Source of the DNA: a bacterium
GTDB lineage: Bacteria; SM23-31; JAUVVT01
Length of the DNA stretch: 14,122 nt
Direction: 5' to 3'
Assembly: GCA_030616165.1 (NCBI GenBank)
Contig: JAUWXV010000076.1
Location: forward strand, 1 to 14,122
Shown here: in pieces, positions 2,384-10,592 of the stretch
Layout of the letters: every line of letters begins with the position of its first letter
Position numbering within the stretch: the first letter of the stretch is position 1
Notes under the pieces: model-generated
Databases searched by the model: none
What the model was told of the DNA's origin: nothing
What the model saw: the letters and a program-made list of their open reading frames with translations, nothing else
Position numbers and translations under genes: made by a program

Positions 2384-2488
2384 ATTTCTAATTCATCCCG
2401 ACTCTTCGGGATGAATTAGAAATAAGTAAAAAGTTTCTTTGCTTACTTTCTTTTCAAAGAAAGTAAGTTCTTTTTCAAAGAAAGTAAG
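2384..2488 (+). repeat. Composite two-hairpin repeat element, copy A
   Basis: First hairpin: ATTTCTAATTCATCCCGA (2384-2401) pairs perfectly over 18 bp with 2406-2423 around the loop CTCT. Next comes the conserved box AAAGTTTCTTTG (2430-2441). The second hairpin follows: CTTACTTTCTTT (2442-2453), TC, AAAGAAAGTAAG (2456-2467). The last 20 bases are then duplicated in tandem, with one extra T, to 2488. The same order of parts recurs at 9007-9087. It has no coding capacity; a non-autonomous mobile or REP-like element is the likeliest explanation. Confidence 0.8.
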
Positions 2489-2598
2489 TTTTTAAAAAAT
2501 TTACTAAAATCAAATTAATGAAAACTTATGAAAAAAACAAAGTAAAATCTTTAAATGATTCAATAAAAAAATTATTGTGTAAAAAACCTCAGAGATAC

Positions 2599-5500
2599 TT
2601 AATTTTCAATAATATTCTTTTTTTCTACTGTAATTACTTGTGTTAAAACATTTTTAAATAAATTCCTGATATTATCCAATTTTTTTGTATCATCCTTTTC
2701 CTGAAACATAATTCTAAAACCGAATTTCTTACCTTGAAAAAATGTGAACTCTTCAGGAGCAAATTTCGAAAAGGAAAATATCTTTTCTTTAAATCTCTCA
2801 TTTTTGACACCTTCATCAAATTCAGCAGTCAATGATTCATTACTTATAGATATATGATTAATATCTAATTTATTACCAAGGATTTTAATGCATATTAACT
2901 GCATTAAATTATAAACAGTATCAGGAAATTTACCATATCTATCCTTCATCTCTTCTTCAATATCAAAAACTTCGTTTAACTCTTTTGCCTCGGAAAGTCT
3001 GCGGTAATAATTTACTCTCTGCTCGCTGTCATTTATATAATCTTCGGGAAAGAAAGCATCAATATCAGAAATAATCTTAAGTTCCCAATCTTTATCACTT
3101 ACCTCTTCTGCCTCTTCAGTTTCAAACTCCTTCTTTTTAAGTTCGTTCACCGTCTGCCGTAAAATCTTATTATACAAATCGAATCCTACTGCATTTATAA
3201 ATCCACTCTGCTCCCTTCCGAGCAGGTTTCCTGCTCCTCTTATCTCAAGGTCTTTTAAAGCAATCTTAAAACCGCTTCCCAGTTCAGAATGACTCTTTAT
3301 AGTCAAAAGTCTCTTTAGAGAAATATCATCAAGCGTATCAATGGAAGGAACAACAAGATATGAATAAGCCTGAACATTTGACCTGCCGACCCTGCCGCGT
3401 AATTGATATAACTGAGACAATCCAAACTTATCTGCTCGGTCTATTATTATTGTATTAACATTCGGAATATCAAGACCTGATTCAATTATCATTGTCGAAA
3501 CAAGACAATCAAACTTCCTTTCTAAAAAATCTATCATAACTGTTTCAAGGTCCTTCTCTTTCATCTGCCCGTGTGCAATAGCAATCCTTAAACCGGGCAC
3601 AATCCTCTTTATCCTGGCTGCTATTCCGTTAATAGTCTTAACACGATTATGAACAAAATAAACCTGTCCACCGCGGTCTATTTCTCTCAAAATTGCGTTC
3701 CTTATAATATTATCATCAAACTTGATAATTTTTGTAATAATCGACAGTCTCTCTTTTGGAGGGGTATCAATATTAGAAAGGTCTCTTATCCCCATAAGAG
3801 ACATATTCAGAGTCCTCGGAATTGGAGTAGCGGTCATAGTTAAAACATCTACTTCTTTACGAAACTTTTTCAACTTTTCTTTGTGACTTACCCCAAATCT
3901 TTGTTCTTCATCAATAATCAAAAGACCTAATTCCTTAAATTCTACATCTTTTGACAAAATCCTGTGTGTTCCGATGACAATATCGACAATCCCCAATTTC
4001 ATTCTCTCGACTATATATTTCTGCTGTTTTCTCGTTTTGAACCTCGAAAGCACTTCTATACTCATTGGATACTTTGACAGCCTGCTTTTAAATGTATCAT
4101 GATGCTGTTGAGCAAGGATAGTAGTCGGAACAAGGACGGCGACCTGCTTTGAGTCATTAACCGCCTTAAAAGCAGCGCGAAGGGCAACTTCTGTCTTCCC
4201 ATATCCTACATCCCCGCAAACAAGCCTGTCCATTATCAGCGGTTTCTCCATATCATATTTGATTTCACGGCACGCCTGAAGCTGTCCAGGAGTTTCATCA
4301 TAAAAAAACGAAGCCTCAAGTTCCCTCTGCCATTGAGTATCTGATGAAAATGAAAATCCCATCCTTATTTTTCTTTCAGCATAAATCCCAAGCAGTTCCT
4401 TCGCAATATTTTGAACAGACTTTTTTGTCTTCTTCTTTATCTTTTCCCAGTCAGTTGTCCCAAGTTTGCTGAGTTTAGGCTTTATCCCTTCCTGTGCAGA
4501 ATATTTTTCAATCTTATTCAATCGGTCAATACTAAGATATAGATAATCCCTATCATCATACATAATTTTCAGACATTCCTGAAGGCTTCCTCCCACATTT
4601 ATCTTTTTCAGACCAAAATAATTCCCTATACCGTAATCTTCATGCACAATAAAATCTCCTGTACTCAAAGATTTGTCAGAAAACAACCCTCTAACACTCT
4701 CCCGAATCCTTCTTGCAGGTCTCCATTTCTCCCTTTGGAAAATCTGGTGGTCTATAAATACCGCACATCCTGCATCCGGAAATATAAAACCATCACATAA
4801 AGAACCTGTCCCCACAAACGGCTCTTCAACAATATTCGGATCATCCTCAAAAAACTCCTCTAATCTTTCAGTCTGACCATTATTATCACAGAGTATATAA
4901 ACAGAGCATTTATTTTCTCTGGAATATAACCTTGATATCTCTTTACTCAAAAGAGAAAGGTCTCGTTTAAATGACGGGGGCTCACATGAAGAAAAATCTA
5001 TTTCATCTTTCCCATAAACCGTCTCAAATGATATATCAATCGATGGAAGTGAATTCATTCTGGTTATTATTTCATCCGGTTTATAGAAATTATCTTCTAA
5101 ACTCGAACCCAAAAATAAATCATAGGAATCAAATGGAAGATTATTTGTTATCTCCTTAATATGATTCTCCATTCTATTTTTATAAAGAAAGGGTTCAATT
5201 TTAAAAAACCTAACATCCTTATCAAGAAAATCAAAAAACTGAAATCCTGACTTTTTATCAATTCTTTCATCTTCCCCTGAAAGGTCATTCACTGGTGAGA
5301 TAAATAATGTACTATCAAGATTCTTGATTGACCTCTGGGTAGATACGTCAAATAAGCGAATAGAATGTATAAAATTCCCATCAAGTTCCATTCTTAAGGG
5401 ATTATCAAAAGTGTGCGGGAAAATATCTATGATTCCACCCCTAACGCTGAAATCTCCCGGCTCTTCAACCATACTCTGCCTCTCAAATCCCATATTATGG

Positions 5501-5970
5501 ATTCTCTCAAGAAGTATATCGTATTCTACTTGACCTCCCAATTTAAACTCAAAAAAATAATTTGATAATTCTGAAGGCGGTTTCAAGGGATAAATCAATG
5601 AACTCGAATCTATTATGAATATTCCCTTTCTCTCATAAAAAAGTTTTTCATATACCCTCAGTCTCTGGGAGATTATCTCTTGATTTTGAACTGCATCGGT
5701 AAAAAAATATGGGTCATACGAAATAAAGACAGATATATCTATGTCGTTAAGATTTTCAAGGTCATCTCTCAGGCTCAATGCTGAATTTTTTTCAGGAACA
5801 AATATTACAAAGCTTCCACCAATCCTCTCGTACAATAAAGATATCAATATACTATTCAGCGAACCACATACACCTTTTAAGACGAAATTCTCCCCTCTCC
5901 CCCCTTTATTCAGAAAATTCTCTGTAATCCGACTTCCTGCTACCTTTTTCTTTATTGAATCGATTAACAT
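2599..5970 (-). CDS. mfd: Transcription-repair coupling factor Mfd
   Basis: ATP-driven DNA translocase that removes RNA polymerase stalled at lesions and recruits UvrA for nucleotide excision repair. From the ATG at 5970 it is 1123 residues, near the usual 1100-1180. A degenerate UvrB-like region comes first, with RGGIIDIFP at about 177-185. The RNA-polymerase-interacting (CarD-like) domain is at about 434-491 (TGDFIVHEDYGIGNYFG). The translocase has Walker A GDVGYGKTE at about 586-594, DEEQ at 687-690, TATPIPRT near 714, and LRGRVGRS at about 857-864. A C-terminal TRCF domain contains INDSEQRVNYYRRL. An in-frame TTG at 6012 would add 14 residues (MKKKVAKKTLNYFS), but these are read from an interspersed repeat, so the ATG is preferred. 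Neither start has a clear ribosome-binding site. It follows rsmG by about 95 bp. Confidence 0.97.
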   Translation of the reverse strand: MLIDSIKKKVAGSRITENFLNKGGRGENFVLKGVCGSLNSILISLLYERIGGSFVIFVPEKNSALSLRDDLENLNDIDISVFISYDPYFFTDAVQNQEIISQRLRVYEKLFYERKGIFIIDSSSLIYPLKPPSELSNYFFEFKLGGQVEYDILLERIHNMGFERQSMVEEPGDFSVRGGIIDIFPHTFDNPLRMELDGNFIHSIRLFDVSTQRSIKNLDSTLFISPVNDLSGEDERIDKKSGFQFFDFLDKDVRFFKIEPFLYKNRMENHIKEITNNLPFDSYDLFLGSSLEDNFYKPDEIITRMNSLPSIDISFETVYGKDEIDFSSCEPPSFKRDLSLLSKEISRLYSRENKCSVYILCDNNGQTERLEEFFEDDPNIVEEPFVGTGSLCDGFIFPDAGCAVFIDHQIFQREKWRPARRIRESVRGLFSDKSLSTGDFIVHEDYGIGNYFGLKKINVGGSLQECLKIMYDDRDYLYLSIDRLNKIEKYSAQEGIKPKLSKLGTTDWEKIKKKTKKSVQNIAKELLGIYAERKIRMGFSFSSDTQWQRELEASFFYDETPGQLQACREIKYDMEKPLIMDRLVCGDVGYGKTEVALRAAFKAVNDSKQVAVLVPTTILAQQHHDTFKSRLSKYPMSIEVLSRFKTRKQQKYIVERMKLGIVDIVIGTHRILSKDVEFKELGLLIIDEEQRFGVSHKEKLKKFRKEVDVLTMTATPIPRTLNMSLMGIRDLSNIDTPPKERLSIITKIIKFDDNIIRNAILREIDRGGQVYFVHNRVKTINGIAARIKRIVPGLRIAIAHGQMKEKDLETVMIDFLERKFDCLVSTMIIESGLDIPNVNTIIIDRADKFGLSQLYQLRGRVGRSNVQAYSYLVVPSIDTLDDISLKRLLTIKSHSELGSGFKIALKDLEIRGAGNLLGREQSGFINAVGFDLYNKILRQTVNELKKKEFETEEAEEVSDKDWELKIISDIDAFFPEDYINDSEQRVNYYRRLSEAKELNEVFDIEEEMKDRYGKFPDTVYNLMQLICIKILGNKLDINHISISNESLTAEFDEGVKNERFKEKIFSFSKFAPEEFTFFQGKKFGFRIMFQEKDDTKKLDNIRNLFKNVLTQVITVEKKNIIEN

Positions 5971-5983
5971 AGAAAAATAATTT

Positions 5984-6022
5984 AAAGTTTTCTTTGCTAC
6001 TTTCTTTTTCAAAAGAAAGTAG
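5984..6022 (+). repeat. Interspersed hairpin element, copy D (overlaps the possible mfd start)
   Basis: A variant box AAAGTTTTCTTTG (5984-5996) is followed by stem CTACTTTCTTTT (5997-6008), TC, AAAAGAAAGTAG (6011-6022). Orientation matches the other copies. Compared with them the inner stem has one extra T/A pair. The alternative TTG start of mfd lies inside the loop and right arm (6010-6012). Confidence 0.8.
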
Positions 6023-6065
6023 AGATTTTAATAAAATTTGAAAATTTACTATACTTTGATATTTT

Positions 6066-6752
6066 TTATATTTCTTTTTTATAAAATAATAAAAATCTTA
6101 ATTTTTTCTTAGAATCTACATATACAATCTCCTCGCGCATATTAGTATTTCTAAAAGAATTATCACTAAAAATAGATTTCTTTTTTAAAGAATAAGGAAT
6201 AACAAGGACTCCCCCATTTTTATTTTTATTAGATAATTTTAAAAAAGGAATAGTCCAGGATATAATTTTATCAATTGGAGCAACAGTCCGGGCAGTAATA
6301 ATATCAAAAGAGTTCAAAAGACGACTATCATCCATATTTTCAATCCTTTCACAAGCGAGAGAGACATTATTCAGTTCCAAAGTATCTATAAGTTCTTTCA
6401 GATAAAGATATTTTTTCCTGTTCGACTCTACAAGTAAAAGAAGAATCTCAGGGAAGATAATCTTCAAAGGAATTGAAGGGAAACCTGCACCGGGACCTAA
6501 ATCCATCATTCTCTTTGGCTTTGTAAAATCAAAAATCTTCAATAAAGCAAGCGATTCGATAAAATGCTTGCTGACAATCCTCTCCTCATCACCTCTTGAA
6601 ACCAGATGTACCCTCTTATTCCATTGGATTAAAAAATCCTTATAAATAGAAAAAATCCTCATCTTTTCTTCAGATATATCTACTCCCCACCCCATTAAAA
6701 CTTCACCCATCCTTTTAATCTCTTCAGAAAAAAAATGTTTCACGTGAAACAT
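6066..6752 (-). CDS. rsmG: 16S rRNA (guanine527-N7)-methyltransferase RsmG
   Basis: Methylates N7 of G527 in 16S rRNA using S-adenosylmethionine; also known as GidB. The 228 residues are typical of the family. SAM-binding motif I is DLGPGAGFPSIPL at about 84-96 (family form DIGSGAGFPGIPL). Other family signatures are LIQWNKRVHLVS (41-52), LVESNRKKYLYLKEL (107-121) and ITARTVAPI (152-160). The N-terminus MFHVKH recurs in RsmG proteins of many bacteria because the DNA there is a parS site. No Shine-Dalgarno is visible before the ATG, but an extended -10 promoter candidate lies about 30 bases upstream. It follows mnmG by 73 bp, the classical gidA-gidB order. The genes that often follow, parA and parB, are replaced by mfd. 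Confidence 0.97.
   Translation of the reverse strand: MFHVKHFFSEEIKRMGEVLMGWGVDISEEKMRIFSIYKDFLIQWNKRVHLVSRGDEERIVSKHFIESLALLKIFDFTKPKRMMDLGPGAGFPSIPLKIIFPEILLLLVESNRKKYLYLKELIDTLELNNVSLACERIENMDDSRLLNSFDIITARTVAPIDKIISWTIPFLKLSNKNKNGGVLVIPYSLKKKSIFSDNSFRNTNMREEIVYVDSKKKLRFLLFYKKEI
6735..6752. promoter_or_regulatory. parS centromere site (ParB binding) inside the 5' end of rsmG
   Basis: ATGTTTCACGTGAAACAT is a perfect 18-bp palindrome. Its central 16 bases, TGTTTCACGTGAAACA (6736-6751), match the widely conserved bacterial chromosomal parS consensus at every position. The palindrome is also codons 1-6 of rsmG (M-F-H-V-K-H). Origin-proximal parS sites load ParB for chromosome segregation and SMC recruitment. 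No parA or parB lies in the window, so the cognate proteins must be encoded elsewhere. Confidence 0.9.
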
Positions 6753-6778
6753 TGAAATAAGTCTATTAATATTAATGT

Positions 6779-6787
6779 ATTATATCA
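6779..6787 (-). promoter_or_regulatory. Candidate extended -10 promoter of rsmG
   Basis: The minus strand reads TGATATAAT, a perfect TGnTATAAT extended -10, placing a start site about 20 nt before the rsmG ATG. There is no good -35, which extended -10 promoters can tolerate. A 12-bp palindrome, ATTAATATTAAT (6765-6776), covers the expected start point. Unproven, but better placed than other TATAAT boxes here. Confidence 0.4.
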
Positions 6788-6825
6788 TAAAGATTTTTTG
6801 CTTTCCTTAAGAGATACATTGTTTT

Positions 6826-8688
6826 TTATACATTGCATCCAATCTTCTTAAGGTAGATAAAAAGAACCGAGATATCTGAAGGTGTTATGCCTGGAATTCT
6901 TGAAGCCTGTCCAATTGAATGCGGTCTTACTTTTGAAAGCTTCTCCTTTGCTTCTGTCGAAATCGACATTATTTTATAATAATCAATATCATCGGGAATA
7001 AGTTTTTTCTCATGTTTTTTCATCCGCTCTATCTGGGAAATCTGTCTTTCTATATATCCTTTATACTTTATTTCCATCTCCACCTGAGGGGCAATGCTGT
7101 CAAGGGATTCATTTTTCTCATCCCCTCTTAAGAATTCACTTATATCTGAAAACCTTATCTCTGGTCTTTTTAATATCTGAGCAATATTTACTGCGTTATC
7201 TACCTTTGCCGAATTAACTCTTTCGAGTACAGGATTGATTTCGTTTGGTTTCACTTTCTTTTTGTACAACGAAATAATAATCTTTTCACGCTCTTCTCTT
7301 TTCTTTTTCATTTTTTCATACGCTTTATCGGGTATAAGACCAAATCCATATCCATATTTCATCAATCTTTCATCGGCATTATCCTGTCTTAAAAGTAGGC
7401 GGTATTCCGCTCTCGATGTAAACATTCTGTATGGTTCGTCTGTTCCTCTGGTAACAAGGTCATCTATCATAACCCCTATATATGCCTCCGAACGACCAAG
7501 TACAAAAGGTTTTTCATTCTGGAGTTTTAATACAGCATTAATTCCCGCCATCATACCAAGACCAGCCGCCTCTTCGTATCCAGATGTTCCGTTTATCTGT
7601 CCTGCCAGAAAGAGATTTTCCACTGCTCTTGATTCAAGGTTTAGTTTTATCTGATCCGTGGGAAAATAATCGTATTCTATAGCATATCCAAACCTCGTGA
7701 TTTCAACTTCCTCCAGCCCTTTTATTGACCCCAGTCCCTTAATCTGAATATCCTCAGGAAGGGATGTCGAAAATCCATTTACATAATATTCCGAAGTATT
7801 ATATCCTTCCGGTTCGAGGAATATCTGGTGTCTCTCTTTATCTTTAAATCTCACGAGTTTCGTCTCAATAGAAGGACAGTATCTCGGACCTAAAGATTTT
7901 ATTACACCTGAATACAACGGCGACCTGTCAAATCCACTGAAAAGTATATTATGTGTCTCCTGATTTGTATATGTCAGATAACAAGGCACCTGCACTATTT
8001 CTATCTTCTCTGTCTGATAAGAAAATGGGACAGGGATTTCATCCCCATTCTGAAAAGTAAGGAGTTTCCAGTTAACCGTTTTGCCATCAATCCTCGGGGG
8101 GGTACCTGTTTTAAATCTCTTAGATTTTATCCCCAACTTATTCAAATTCTCGGTCAATCCTTTTGATGGAATCTCACCAGCCCTTCCCCCGGGATAACTC
8201 TTAAGACCAATATGTATAAGCCCGTTTAAAAATGTCCCGGCAGTGATTATAACCGCTCTGCCTTCATATACAATTCCCATGCCGGTTTTAACTCCGGCTG
8301 CCCTTTTCCCGTCCGCCAATATCTCCACTACCATACCCTCTTCTACGGTCAGATTATCTTTTTTCTCAACTCTACTTTTCATCTCCGAAGAATACATTAC
8401 CCTATCAGCCTGAGCCCTCGGCGACCACACTGCCGGACCCTTCGACCTGTTAAGCATCCTGAATTGAATACCTGTTGCATCAATCACCTTTGCCATCTCC
8501 CCACCAAGAGCATCAATCTCCTTCACCAAATGTCCCTTTGCAAGCCCTCCAATTGCAGGATTGCAGGACATCCAGGCAATGCTGTTCACATTCATTGTTA
8601 TCAGCAGAGTTTTACATCCCATTCCCGCAGATGCTGCCGCCGCTTCACACCCGGCATGTCCTCCACCTACCACGATTATATCATACAT
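6826..8688 (-). CDS. mnmG: tRNA uridine-34 carboxymethylaminomethylation enzyme MnmG (GidA)
   Basis: FAD-dependent partner of MnmE that installs the cmnm5 group on U34 of certain tRNAs. From the ATG at 8688 it is 620 residues, the usual length. The dinucleotide-binding motif GGGHAG is at 8-13 directly after MYDIIVV, which fixes the start. The two cysteines expected by family are present: SCNPAIGG (Cys42) and RYCPSIE (Cys271). Also seen are KGPAVWSPRAQADR, AGTFLNG, GGRAGEIPS, RFKTGTPPR, the FAD motif FLAGQINGTSGYEEAAG (about 360-376) and TSRAEYRLLLRQDNAD. The C-terminal helical domain with IPGITPSDI is complete. The frame stays open to an upstream ATG at 8793, adding 35 residues that do not resemble the family. 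No clear Shine-Dalgarno is present. Confidence 0.97.
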   Translation of the reverse strand: MYDIIVVGGGHAGCEAAAASAGMGCKTLLITMNVNSIAWMSCNPAIGGLAKGHLVKEIDALGGEMAKVIDATGIQFRMLNRSKGPAVWSPRAQADRVMYSSEMKSRVEKKDNLTVEEGMVVEILADGKRAAGVKTGMGIVYEGRAVIITAGTFLNGLIHIGLKSYPGGRAGEIPSKGLTENLNKLGIKSKRFKTGTPPRIDGKTVNWKLLTFQNGDEIPVPFSYQTEKIEIVQVPCYLTYTNQETHNILFSGFDRSPLYSGVIKSLGPRYCPSIETKLVRFKDKERHQIFLEPEGYNTSEYYVNGFSTSLPEDIQIKGLGSIKGLEEVEITRFGYAIEYDYFPTDQIKLNLESRAVENLFLAGQINGTSGYEEAAGLGMMAGINAVLKLQNEKPFVLGRSEAYIGVMIDDLVTRGTDEPYRMFTSRAEYRLLLRQDNADERLMKYGYGFGLIPDKAYEKMKKKREEREKIIISLYKKKVKPNEINPVLERVNSAKVDNAVNIAQILKRPEIRFSDISEFLRGDEKNESLDSIAPQVEMEIKYKGYIERQISQIERMKKHEKKLIPDDIDYYKIMSISTEAKEKLSKVRPHSIGQASRIPGITPSDISVLFIYLKKIGCNV

Positions 8689-8702
8689 TTTAAAAATCTT
8701 AA

Positions 8703-8730
8703 TTATAAATTTTCTTACTTCTTTTGAAAG
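8703..8730 (+). repeat. Possible decayed hairpin element just upstream of mnmG
   Basis: CTTACTTCTTTTGAAAG (8714-8730) resembles the left arm and loop of the interspersed hairpin (CTTACTTTCTTT, TC, AAAG), with small deletions and no full right arm. It lies 15-40 bases before the mnmG ATG, about where copies C and D lie before mnmE and mfd. It could be chance in AT-rich sequence. Confidence 0.3.
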
Positions 8731-8827
8731 ATGACACGGCAAAAAGTCTAAAAAATTTGTTTTTAAATCTTTGTTCCGAAAATAGAACCCCATATTTCAC
8801 GGATTATACAGATTAAAGAAATTAGAT

Positions 8828-8856
8828 GTAGGGACAGAACACTGTTCTGTCCTTAC
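8828..8856. repeat. Palindromic repeat, TGTAGGGACA family, copy 1
   Basis: GTAGGGACAGAACA (8828-8841) pairs with TGTTCTGTCCTTAC (8843-8856) around a single C. The 14-bp arms contain one G-T wobble. It shares the frame TGTAGGGACA...TGTCCTT with 8957-8982 while the inner arm differs. It is GC-richer than its surroundings. Confidence 0.75.
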
Positions 8857-8877
8857 AATTATTTTCATAACTCGTGG

Positions 8878-8892
8878 TGCTCTTAAAGAGCA
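8878..8892. repeat. Small inverted repeat
   Basis: TGCTCTT (8878-8884) and AAGAGCA (8886-8892) flank one A. In RNA this would fold as a short stem with a small AU loop. It lies between the two TGTAGGGACA palindromes. No U-tract follows on either strand, so it is not an obvious terminator. Confidence 0.4.
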
Positions 8893-8956
8893 TGAATGTT
8901 TCTTTTGAAATAAATACAATTTTAATATATTGACTTAAATTAATCTGCACGACCTT

Positions 8957-8982
8957 GTAGGGACACGCCGAGGCGTGTCCTT
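8957..8982. repeat. Palindromic repeat, TGTAGGGACA family, copy 2
   Basis: GGACACGCC (8961-8969) pairs perfectly with GGCGTGTCC (8972-8980) around GA. A G-T and an A-T pair extend the stem outward. The flanks (TGTAGGGACA and TGTCCTT) match copy 1, but the inner arms are CGCC/GGCG where copy 1 has GAACA/TGTTC. Confidence 0.75.
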
Positions 8983-9006
8983 TATTAATTTTCACTTTTT
9001 GCCGGA

Positions 9007-9087
9007 CTATTATTCCTCATCCCGAAACTTTGGGATGAGAAATAATAGAAAAGTTTCTTTGGTTACTTTCTTTTCAAAGAAAGTAAC
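9007..9087 (+). repeat. Composite two-hairpin repeat element, copy B
   Basis: First hairpin: CTATTATTCCTCATCCC (9007-9023) pairs with 9032-9048, 17 bp with one mismatch. Next comes AAAGTTTCTTTG (9050-9061), then stem GTTACTTTCTTT (9062-9073), TC, AAAGAAAGTAAC (9076-9087). It has the same architecture and orientation as 2384-2467. The last stem base is also the last base of the mnmE stop codon, so the element abuts the gene exactly. Confidence 0.8.
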
Positions 9088-10481
9088 TATTTGCCTATGC
9101 AGAACTTGGAAAATATCCTATCGAGAAGGTCCTCTCCTGCAGCATCACCTGTTATCTTACCCAAATATTCTATCGTCTCTGAGAAATCAAGTGCCAAAAA
9201 CTCATTAGGAACATTATTTTCGTAACCCTTAATCAATCTCCCAATCCCTTCATGAGCCTTCTTTAACAGCTCCTGATGTCTAATATTCACAATTAATATA
9301 TCATTGTTTTCTATGGATTTATGTGATATTGTGCTTTCAGTGAATGCATTTTTAAGTTTATCAATGCCAATCTTTTCTTTTGCAGAAACCAAAAGACTTA
9401 CCCCCTCATTGCCATTAATTATTGGCTTAAATTTATTTATGTCTTTTATAAGGTCAATTTTATTATACGCTATAAATAATTTTTTGTCTCCAAAAAATTT
9501 ATTCTTCAAATCATTATATATTTTTAAATCCTCATCTGGCTGGATATCAGACATATCGATTACCAGCACTGCTATATCAGAATCCTCCATAGTAAGTTCT
9601 GTTCTTTTTACCCCCTCTTTTTCAACATACACGACGCTTTCCCGGAGCCCTGCAGTATCTACAATTTTTAATAATACCCCATTATGAGTAATTTCTCCAT
9701 CAATAATATCGCGAGTTGTTCCAGGCTCATCACTAACAATTACCCTGTCCTTGCCAATCAATGCGTTAAGGAGCGAGGACTTTCCAACGTTTACCCTTCC
9801 ATAAATCCCAATCTTAATTCCATCCTTATAATACCTGCCTATTTTATAAGATTCAATCATCTTTATTATCCCGTCTGATATACCATTTAATCTTTTTATT
9901 AGTATGTCTTTATCTTCCAGTTCAATATCCTCTTCAACAAAATCTATTTCTGCTTCAGAAATTGAATAAATATCAATGATTTTATCCCTTATTTCCTTTA
10001 TAGAACTTTTCAAATCTCCAACAACCTGTCTAACGGCAATTTTCATTACCTTCTCTGATTCTGCTTCTATTAAATCTGCCACAGCCTCCGCTTGTGTTAG
10101 GTCAATCCTCCCGTTTATAAATGCTCTAAATGTGAACTCACCCGGTTCAGCAATCCGTGCACCTTTAGACAAAACAATCTCAAGCAAATTCTTTATCAAA
10201 TAAACGCCTCCATGCGTATTTATTTCAACCATATCTTCCCTGGTATAGGTATTGGGGGCTCTCATTACAATATACATTACCTCGTCGTGTATTTCGCCTG
10301 ACTCTTGATTGATGAAATAGCCGTGATAAACTCTATGAGATTCCGACTCAGAAATTCTCTTACTCCCTTTTAGCACCTTTTCAGCTACAATGAATGCATC
10401 TTCCCCGCTTATTCTTATTATCCCGATACCTCCTTTTCCCATTGGAGTCGATATCGCTGCTATTGTATCCTCTGTTTTCAT
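9087..10481 (-). CDS. mnmE: tRNA modification GTPase MnmE (TrmE)
   Basis: K-loop GTPase that works with MnmG on wobble uridine-34 of tRNA. The 464 residues are family length. The N-terminal formyl-tetrahydrofolate-binding TrmE domain starts DTIAAISTPMGKGGIGIIRISG. A helical domain holds the inserted G domain, with P-loop GRVNVGKSS (228-236), switch GTTRD (254-258), DTAGL (275-279), NKID (340-343) and SAKEKIG (366-372). The C-terminus ends RIFSKFCIGK with the family cysteine at 461. The usual proline of GRPNVGKSS is valine here, a mild variant. An interspersed hairpin occupies the 5' leader 23 bases before the ATG, and no Shine-Dalgarno is visible. Upstream is gyrB with its own terminator, so mnmE needs its own promoter or read-through. 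Confidence 0.98.
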   Translation of the reverse strand: MKTEDTIAAISTPMGKGGIGIIRISGEDAFIVAEKVLKGSKRISESESHRVYHGYFINQESGEIHDEVMYIVMRAPNTYTREDMVEINTHGGVYLIKNLLEIVLSKGARIAEPGEFTFRAFINGRIDLTQAEAVADLIEAESEKVMKIAVRQVVGDLKSSIKEIRDKIIDIYSISEAEIDFVEEDIELEDKDILIKRLNGISDGIIKMIESYKIGRYYKDGIKIGIYGRVNVGKSSLLNALIGKDRVIVSDEPGTTRDIIDGEITHNGVLLKIVDTAGLRESVVYVEKEGVKRTELTMEDSDIAVLVIDMSDIQPDEDLKIYNDLKNKFFGDKKLFIAYNKIDLIKDINKFKPIINGNEGVSLLVSAKEKIGIDKLKNAFTESTISHKSIENNDILIVNIRHQELLKKAHEGIGRLIKGYENNVPNEFLALDFSETIEYLGKITGDAAGEDLLDRIFSKFCIGK

Positions 10482-10492
10482 TTTATAGTTAT

Positions 10493-10530
10493 AAAGTTTC
10501 TTTGCCTACTTTCTTTTCAAAGAAAGTAGG
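10493..10530 (+). repeat. Interspersed hairpin element, copy C
   Basis: AAAGTTTCTTTG (10493-10504) is followed by stem CCTACTTTCTTT (10505-10516), TC, AAAGAAAGTAGG (10519-10530). Relative to copy A the second stem pair is C-G instead of T-A, a compensated change. It lacks the CATCCC hairpin found beside copies A and B. It lies in the mnmE leader. Confidence 0.8.
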
Positions 10531-10551: not shown

Positions 10552-10592
10552 ATATAACCCTGCCGGAAGAACTTTAACCAACAGGGTTATAT
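10552..10592 (-). terminator. Hairpin terminator downstream of gyrB
   Basis: On the minus strand a perfect 11-bp stem is formed by ATATAACCCTG and CAGGGTTATAT with a 19-base loop. It is followed at once by TATTTGTTTTTG, a T-rich tract. It lies about 45 bases after the gyrB stop. The GC core plus T-tract make it the best intrinsic terminator candidate in the window, and it would separate gyrB from mnmE. Confidence 0.65.

Follow-up and report, generated by a model that had tools for sequence, protein, structure and literature searches.

The 14,122-nt stretch of bacterial DNA considered here (contig JAUWXV010000076.1 of assembly GCA_030616165.1), which we call the window, is an entire contig, C151, of a 3.74-Mb, 343-contig assembly designated G000. 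Four similar hairpins are scattered among its genes, and the locus raises the question of what these hairpins are and how they came to be dispersed. A preliminary description, made from the letters of the window, had proposed a four-copy family of interspersed hairpins whose pairing is conserved, and had suggested either a functional RNA or a DNA hairpin recognized by a transposase. We consider it about as likely as not that the copies are the ends of lineage-specific, non-autonomous palindromic interspersed elements, similar in kind to REPINs (doublets of repetitive extragenic palindromes, REPs) or MITEs (miniature inverted-repeat transposable elements), with ends that would be recognized by their structure. 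Our reading of the genome is based on search matches and targeted stretches of G000.

The four copies and their family

The four hairpins lie at the positions first claimed for them, all on the + strand and opposite to the genes, and in all four the 12-bp stem, the TC at the tip and the joint changes of the outer pairs were confirmed. By position, the outer pairs of copies 1 to 4 are CTTAC/GTAAG, CTAC/GTAG, GTTAC/GTAAC and CCTAC/GTAGG, which is not the order originally given. The hairpins fold better than dinucleotide shuffles of themselves, with z values from -3.3 to -5.9. Two features had gone unnoticed. Ahead of the end hairpin, copies 1 and 3 also have a longer hairpin with perfect or near-perfect pairing (2384-2423 and 9007-9048), here called hp1, which is part of the element, and copy 2 differs from the others by one additional T in the linker that precedes its end hairpin and one additional A in the hairpin arm. 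The features of the copies are as follows.

2384..2423, + strand: central hairpin (hp1) of copy 1, 18-bp stem, ATTTCTAATTCATCCCGACTCTTCGGGATGAATTAGAAAT; aligned with 30 others in alignment A2
2424..2467, + strand: linker and end hairpin of copy 1; linker TTTCTTTG at 2434-2441, hairpin at 2442-2467 with arm AAAGAAAG
2447..2488, + strand: near-tandem 21-nt duplication of the 3' part of the copy 1 end hairpin
5981..6022, + strand: copy 2, a half element between rsmG and mfd; linker TTTTCTTTG at 5988-5996, hairpin at 5997-6022 with arm AAAAGAAAG
9007..9048, + strand: central hairpin (hp1) of copy 3, CTATTATTCCTCATCCCGAAACTTTGGGATGAGAAATAATAG
9049..9087, + strand: linker and end hairpin of copy 3; linker TTTCTTTG at 9054-9061, hairpin at 9062-9087
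10490..10530, + strand: linker and end hairpin of copy 4, with no hp1; linker TTTCTTTG at 10497-10504, hairpin at 10505-10530

The copies are far from confined to the window. A strict pattern found 40 matches in G000 and none for a reversed-pattern control, and a covariance model built on 31 copies (alignment A2) found at least 134 matches in the same genome at E<=0.01, opposite-strand matches on one palindrome being counted twice; the four copies are therefore not a product of chance. The genome of a sister genus (G001) gave at least 63 covariance-model matches, while 39 other genomes gave none. Within G000 the copies are strongly clustered on contigs C259, C218, C297 and C76, many of them in the first 20 kb of C259, and contig C182 has no model match.

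Reading 90 of these matches with their flanks, we found that the complete unit is palindromic and about 120-150 nt long, in the order end hairpin, linker, hp1, linker and end hairpin, and that its left half repeats its right half in inverted orientation; the preliminary description had seen one end only. The hp1 stem is variable, at 13-21 bp, and overlapping model matches on opposite strands have one hp1 in common. Many copies are reduced to a half or to a solo end hairpin, and a small CCGCC..GGCGG hairpin is sometimes inserted within a linker.

The stems covary in the many-copy alignment as they do in the window. In A2, both-side changes occur in 21 of the 29 pairs and amount to 145 cells, compared with 42.6 in shuffles and 15-37 in slid controls, while one-sided changes are rare; the arms of hp1 change together with very few one-sided intermediates. 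Together with the copies found across the genome, this upholds a multi-copy interspersed family in which pairing itself is kept. As to what keeps it, hp1 is Watson-Crick in 427 of 445 cells of A2 (the exceptions being GT in 6, CA in 4 and other in 8), and the outer end-hairpin pairs of the window lineage include three GT and six CA mismatches. Selection on an RNA should favor G-U over C-A, and so the pairing in this lineage, with mismatches showing no G-T preference, is probably maintained at the DNA level. The original choice between a functional RNA and a DNA hairpin tilts toward a DNA-level cause in the window lineage, whereas the relatives described below point to a structure of the sense strand.

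A linker that matches the hairpin arm

The additional T and the additional A of copy 2 are the key to a rule that we recognized throughout the family. The linker tracks the purine arm of its own hairpin base for base and in parallel, that is, in the same 5'-3' direction, with A opposed by T, an internal G by C and the last G by G. The match holds across nine arm types, including the linker/arm classes TTTCTTTG/AAAGAAAG, TTTTCTTTG/AAAAGAAAG, TTTTCTTG/AAAAGAAG, TTTTTTGG/AAAAAAGG, TTTTTGG/AAAAAGG, TTTTTTTG/AAAAAAAG and TTTTTTG/AAAAAAG, and all four window copies obey it, the length change in copy 2 included. Of 128 hairpins chosen automatically, 96 agree exactly, where shuffles give a mean of 27 and a maximum of 41 in 10,000; many of the exceptions are on the wrong side of the palindrome or have one extra stem G. 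Even the closest two classes, those of the AAA/AAAA subclass, are separated (Fisher p = 8e-11). Antiparallel pairing of the linker with the 3' arm was considered and rejected, as it fits the mirror-symmetric AAAGAAAG and fails for AAAAGAAAG, AAAAGAAG, AAAAAAGG and AAGAAAAG. The observed match is the one expected of a Hoogsteen third strand. A parallel signature of this type is rarely sought in genome scans, since standard covariation tools are restricted to antiparallel pairs.

The module formed by linker and hairpin extends well beyond this lineage. The strict pattern has one further occurrence among 384 more genomes and is also present in viral contigs, and similarity searches found the module in Caballeronia, Paraburkholderia, Burkholderia, Variovorax, Aeromonas, Pasteurella, Chitinibacter and Ilyobacter, at no fewer than 40 places per replicon in Paraburkholderia. 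The viral contigs were scanned by hairpin-arm patterns alone, so that the selection was independent of the rule; among 41 hairpins in that scan with any of five linkers nearby, 35 have the linker of their own arm, where the table margins lead one to expect about 11. In other phyla the module closes palindromic repeats that are otherwise unrelated, often as an outward-facing inverted pair. Such pairs are about 460 bp apart in Caballeronia, inside a near-palindromic repeat of about 640 bp; a pair in Pasteurella is about 410 bp apart and ends 7 nt from dapF; and in Variovorax the arms of the two paired ends differ, the linker at each end agreeing with the arm beside it. No match came from phage records or E. 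coli genomes, no Rfam family scored above its gathering score (the sub-threshold matches were chance ones only), and a search of the open-access literature for the sequence strings returned no relevant paper. The linker/hairpin end is apparently a structural motif not yet described.

In the distant copies (Burkholderiales, Pasteurella, Ilyobacter, Aeromonas and the viral contigs) the hairpin loop is mostly 8 nt long, whereas it is 2-3 nt in almost all of the window family, and the first five loop bases pair with the bases directly 5' of the linker. The loop/upstream pairs include TCGCC/GGCGA, GTGGCC/GGCCAC, GCTGC/GCAGC, GCCGC/GCGGC, CCTGC/GCAGG, GGCCC/GGGCC and GTCGGC/GCCGAC, among others, and the pairing score is 3.75, compared with 2.68 +/- 0.12 for shuffled loops (maximum 3.04 of 1000). 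In an ungapped alignment of 18 modules, several rows of which come from one Caballeronia record, this stem (S1) has both-side changes at four of its five pairs, in 25 cells, and the hairpin stem (S2) is 99.5% paired. H-type pseudoknots have this same order, S1a-linker-S2a-S1b-S2b, and in them the first loop (L1), here the linker, crosses the major groove of S2. For the distant module we accordingly predict an H-type pseudoknot whose major groove holds a triple helix, a prediction supported by covariation; S1 and S2 covary in this order outside the window lineage, and not in the window family.

A T/U-rich L1 running parallel to a purine strand as its third strand is established for telomerase RNA and the SAM-II riboswitch. 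The copies in other phyla have in common with these the S1a-L1-S2a-S1b-S2b order and the parallel course of a T/U-rich L1 along an A-rich strand of S2. They differ in being the ends of dispersed repeats rather than a riboswitch or telomerase, in that the window lineage is without S1, and in that their triple helix is a predicted one. Outer S2 mismatches in other phyla are G-T in 15 cases (seven of them come from plasmid-collection records, and a single Caballeronia record accounts for several of these) and C-A in one, so that the sense strand appears to matter there, as would suit either RNA or single-stranded DNA.

It is possible, though we lean against it, that a cross-phylum H-type pseudoknot with an L1 forming a parallel triple helix of 7-9 bases is the recognized end of many unrelated palindromic mobile repeats in bacteria and phages, moved by a putative enzyme, and that the window lineage is a pseudoknot-less offshoot amplified to about 100 copies. 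If the parallel linker/arm match reflects a triple helix, it would serve as a sequence rule for finding triple-helix pseudoknots, would link numerous anonymous palindromic repeats from distant bacteria and viruses through a common structural end, and would imply that an enzyme or RNA-binding protein recognizing this end is still to be discovered.

Some of the distant repeats have features of their own. The repeat of about 640 bp in Caballeronia (L267-L286, on pNK81) contains several conserved internal hairpins and is present in at least nine copies on one replicon, with the module closing both sides. On pILYOP01 of Ilyobacter there are six near-identical repeats of about 150-200 bp (L252, L254 and L256-L259), each ending in the pseudoknot module, and a seventh copy (L260) has only the module in common with the six, its S1 being different and compensated. 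Matches in Enterococcus plasmids cover part of the query only, and several are within annotated genes.

Placement, possible movement and a possible role in RNA

The window carries dnaN, dciA, gyrB, mnmE, mnmG, rsmG, mfd and two PPIC-type isomerase genes, all on the minus strand. Copy 3 overlaps the mnmE stop codon (9087-9089) by one base, and copy 4 is directly upstream of the mnmE start. For the family as a whole, we counted placement in fetched stretches that were chosen for carrying copies, so the counts compare types of gap and are not genome frequencies: end hairpins are present in 86 of 240 tandem gaps, 11 of 26 convergent gaps and 2 of 15 divergent gaps. The unit usually lies directly behind a stop codon: an end hairpin is within 10 nt of the upstream stop codon, or overlaps it, in 45 of the 86 tandem gaps, with 8 on the start side. 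Orientation with respect to the flanking tandem genes is mixed in G000 (21 antisense, 16 sense), and the uniform orientation in the window is therefore a local feature. REPs lie next to the 3' ends of open reading frames in tandem and convergent gaps (PMC3733652), and the window family is located in the same way.

Comparison with relatives bears on whether the element moves. In a relative (L066) whose MnmE is 71% identical to that of the window, copy 4 is missing from the gyrB-mnmE gap, an end hairpin is present at the copy 3 position at the end of mnmE, and the module in the rsmG-mfd gap is in the opposite orientation to copy 2. Between the two genera, an element at C259:12417 of G000 is missing from G001, two orthologous sites have a full element in G000 and a solo end hairpin in G001, and identity is 95-100% over element pieces of about 44 nt, compared with about 75% for orthologous genes. 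We count the cross-genus identity, the absences, the full-versus-solo sites and the flipped orientation as suggestive of mobility. The placement of copies at gene edges, differences in presence and absence against a relative, and the existence of relatives elsewhere all stand.

A mechanism for such an element may be proposed. The unit, [end hairpin]-linker-[hp1]-linker-[end hairpin], has mutually inverted halves and is often shortened. The linker would lie in the major groove of its hairpin as a third strand, forming T.A-T and C+.G-C triples and a final G.G-C triple, and the resulting compact end would be recognized by a putative enzyme on single-stranded DNA (or RNA), leading to copying of the unit. 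The window lineage may have kept the third-strand/hairpin part and lost the pseudoknot stem, its loop being 2 nt long. Copies would persist mainly after stop codons because coding sequence and ribosome-binding sites are spared there, and the near-perfect arms of hp1 could be due to DNA-level arm-to-arm copying or cassette exchange. We infer the triple helix from the rule, and recognition by an enzyme from the triple helix.

Several points weigh against this reading. No recurrent protein or open reading frame family was found beside the copies, and no enzyme was found. A clean empty site with joined flanks was not found, both absences being in diverged gaps, and target duplication was not established, with none visible by eye at a few full copies and the orthologous gaps too diverged. 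The copies are related by descent, so that the counts are not independent events. The triple helix stands at present as a rule of sequence, in which C at an internal G and G at the terminal G would need C+.G-C and G.G-C triples. Finally, the sense-strand wobble bias elsewhere suits RNA at least as well as single-stranded DNA.

This last point belongs to the strongest rival explanation, which is a role in the transcript behind stop codons: as a cis-acting RNA, the triple-helix pseudoknot or stable hairpin would block 3'-to-5' exonucleases or tune operon expression, and spreading would be secondary. The stop-codon placement in tandem and convergent gaps, the wobble bias and the covariation of the pseudoknot all agree with such a role, and a complete palindromic unit always has one end in sense. 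The mixed orientation in G000, however, does not, nor do the loss of the pseudoknot stem in the window family, the mismatches without G-T bias there and the lack of an Rfam family. As the main explanation we judge it rather unlikely, although such a role could coexist with a mobile repeat.

Other explanations and known systems

The repeats might instead be selfish or neutral palindromes, kept perfect solely by template switching between arms during replication, with no recognizing enzyme and no function. The joint changes of the hp1 arms, with so few one-sided intermediates, are what template switching would leave, and the tandem duplication in copy 1 is also in its favor. Copying from arm to arm does not, however, produce a parallel (mirror) match between linker and arm, and the recurrence of that match with other arm types in other phyla is left unexplained, as is the dispersal. 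We regard this explanation as quite improbable.

The preliminary description had proposed a search for a REP-associated tyrosine transposase (RAYT, a Y1 transposase) or an insertion sequence, and a REP or REPIN moved by a RAYT now seems very improbable. The inverted palindrome dimers and the stop-codon placement are as described for REPs (PMC3733652), and there are seven Y1_Tnp matches in G000; at one of them (L061) the gene before it has a degenerate end hairpin at its stop codon. The six loci examined in detail, however, carry or adjoin GC-rich palindromes, in several cases of GTAG type, or other palindromes; none is bordered by intact copies, and no RAYT gene flanked by this repeat was found among them. 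G001 has no Y1_Tnp match in its 70% complete assembly, despite its copies. An unpaired GTAG or CGTC tag is absent from the foot of the hairpin, where the bases are paired and variable (CTTAC, CCTAC, GTTAC, GACACC and GCAAC, with their complements). The absence of the tag and of RAYT linkage excludes the family from the GTAG/CGTC REPs, but does not exclude a REPIN-like way of working. Integron attC sites were also considered and were rejected, as the copies are dispersed on both strands.

The likeness to REPINs and BIMEs (bacterial interspersed mosaic elements; PMC3116915, PMC3733652) is nevertheless considerable, as both have two inverted palindromes around a spacer, high copy number, intergenic location near the 3' ends of open reading frames, stop codons supplied by the repeat, and singletons that are remnants of dimers. 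Full copies of the window family have the two inverted palindromes and spacer of a REPIN, and many copies are halves or solo hairpins. The differences are a third, central hairpin and the parallel linker/arm match, together with the missing tag and the missing linked RAYT. The MITE-like elements YPAL/RU-2, ERIC, Correia and RUP (PMC2229807) are likewise short, palindromic, non-autonomous and intergenic, and YPAL targets areas of dyad symmetry (PMC2229807). The inverted ends expected of a MITE of DDE type are present in the window family, which differs in its variable central hairpin and in structure that is more conserved than sequence; target duplication and a clean empty site, as noted above, were not established. 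The ends of IS200/IS605 insertion sequences and their guide sequences also combine a subterminal hairpin with a short neighboring sequence for which a match is required, but here the match of linker and arm is parallel over 7-9 bases and the sister genome has no Y1 gene match.

Bidirectional intrinsic transcription terminators are the least credible explanation, for although the hairpins are at gene ends and a terminator scan lists copy 1, its hp1 and copy 2, the stems are A-T rich with weak tails in the scan, most copies are within co-directional gaps, some of them 16-37 nt before the next start codon, and the dispersal and linker rule are unexplained.

Other palindromes were seen in the window and at the RAYT loci. 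Upstream of mnmG, at 8827-8857 and 8957-8982 of the window, are two GC-rich GTAG-type palindromes (TGTAGGGACAGAACACTGTTCTGTCCTTACA and TGTAGGGACACGCCGAGGCGTGTCCTT), and similar palindromes (GTAGGGGC) are beside and inside the RAYT gene at L064 (G000:C268). At L059 (G000:C182:13346-16660) GTAG-type units (CCGAGCCTGGGGACAGGCTCGGCTACGG) with pyrimidine-rich spacers between them form a long array that has a RAYT-like gene at its middle. The closely related RAYT-like genes at L060 (1381-1878) and L061 (1354-1881) have GTAGGGGCGGATTTATCCGCCC-type palindromes inside their own reading frames, and another palindrome family (CGCCCTGGGTTTCATTACCCAGGGCG) flanks the RAYT-like gene at L062 (G000:C51), at 1100-1240 and 1800-1870. 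Behind gyrB, at 10553-10592 of the window, is a hairpin (ATAACCCTG..CAGGGTTAT) that is kept in the relative L066 and resembles an ordinary gene-end hairpin or terminator. Finally, G000:C218:1-814 and G001:C390:3696-4509 are 98% identical in DNA over 814 bp at contig ends, where other orthologous regions are about 74% identical; a shared contig, contamination and recent transfer are candidate causes.

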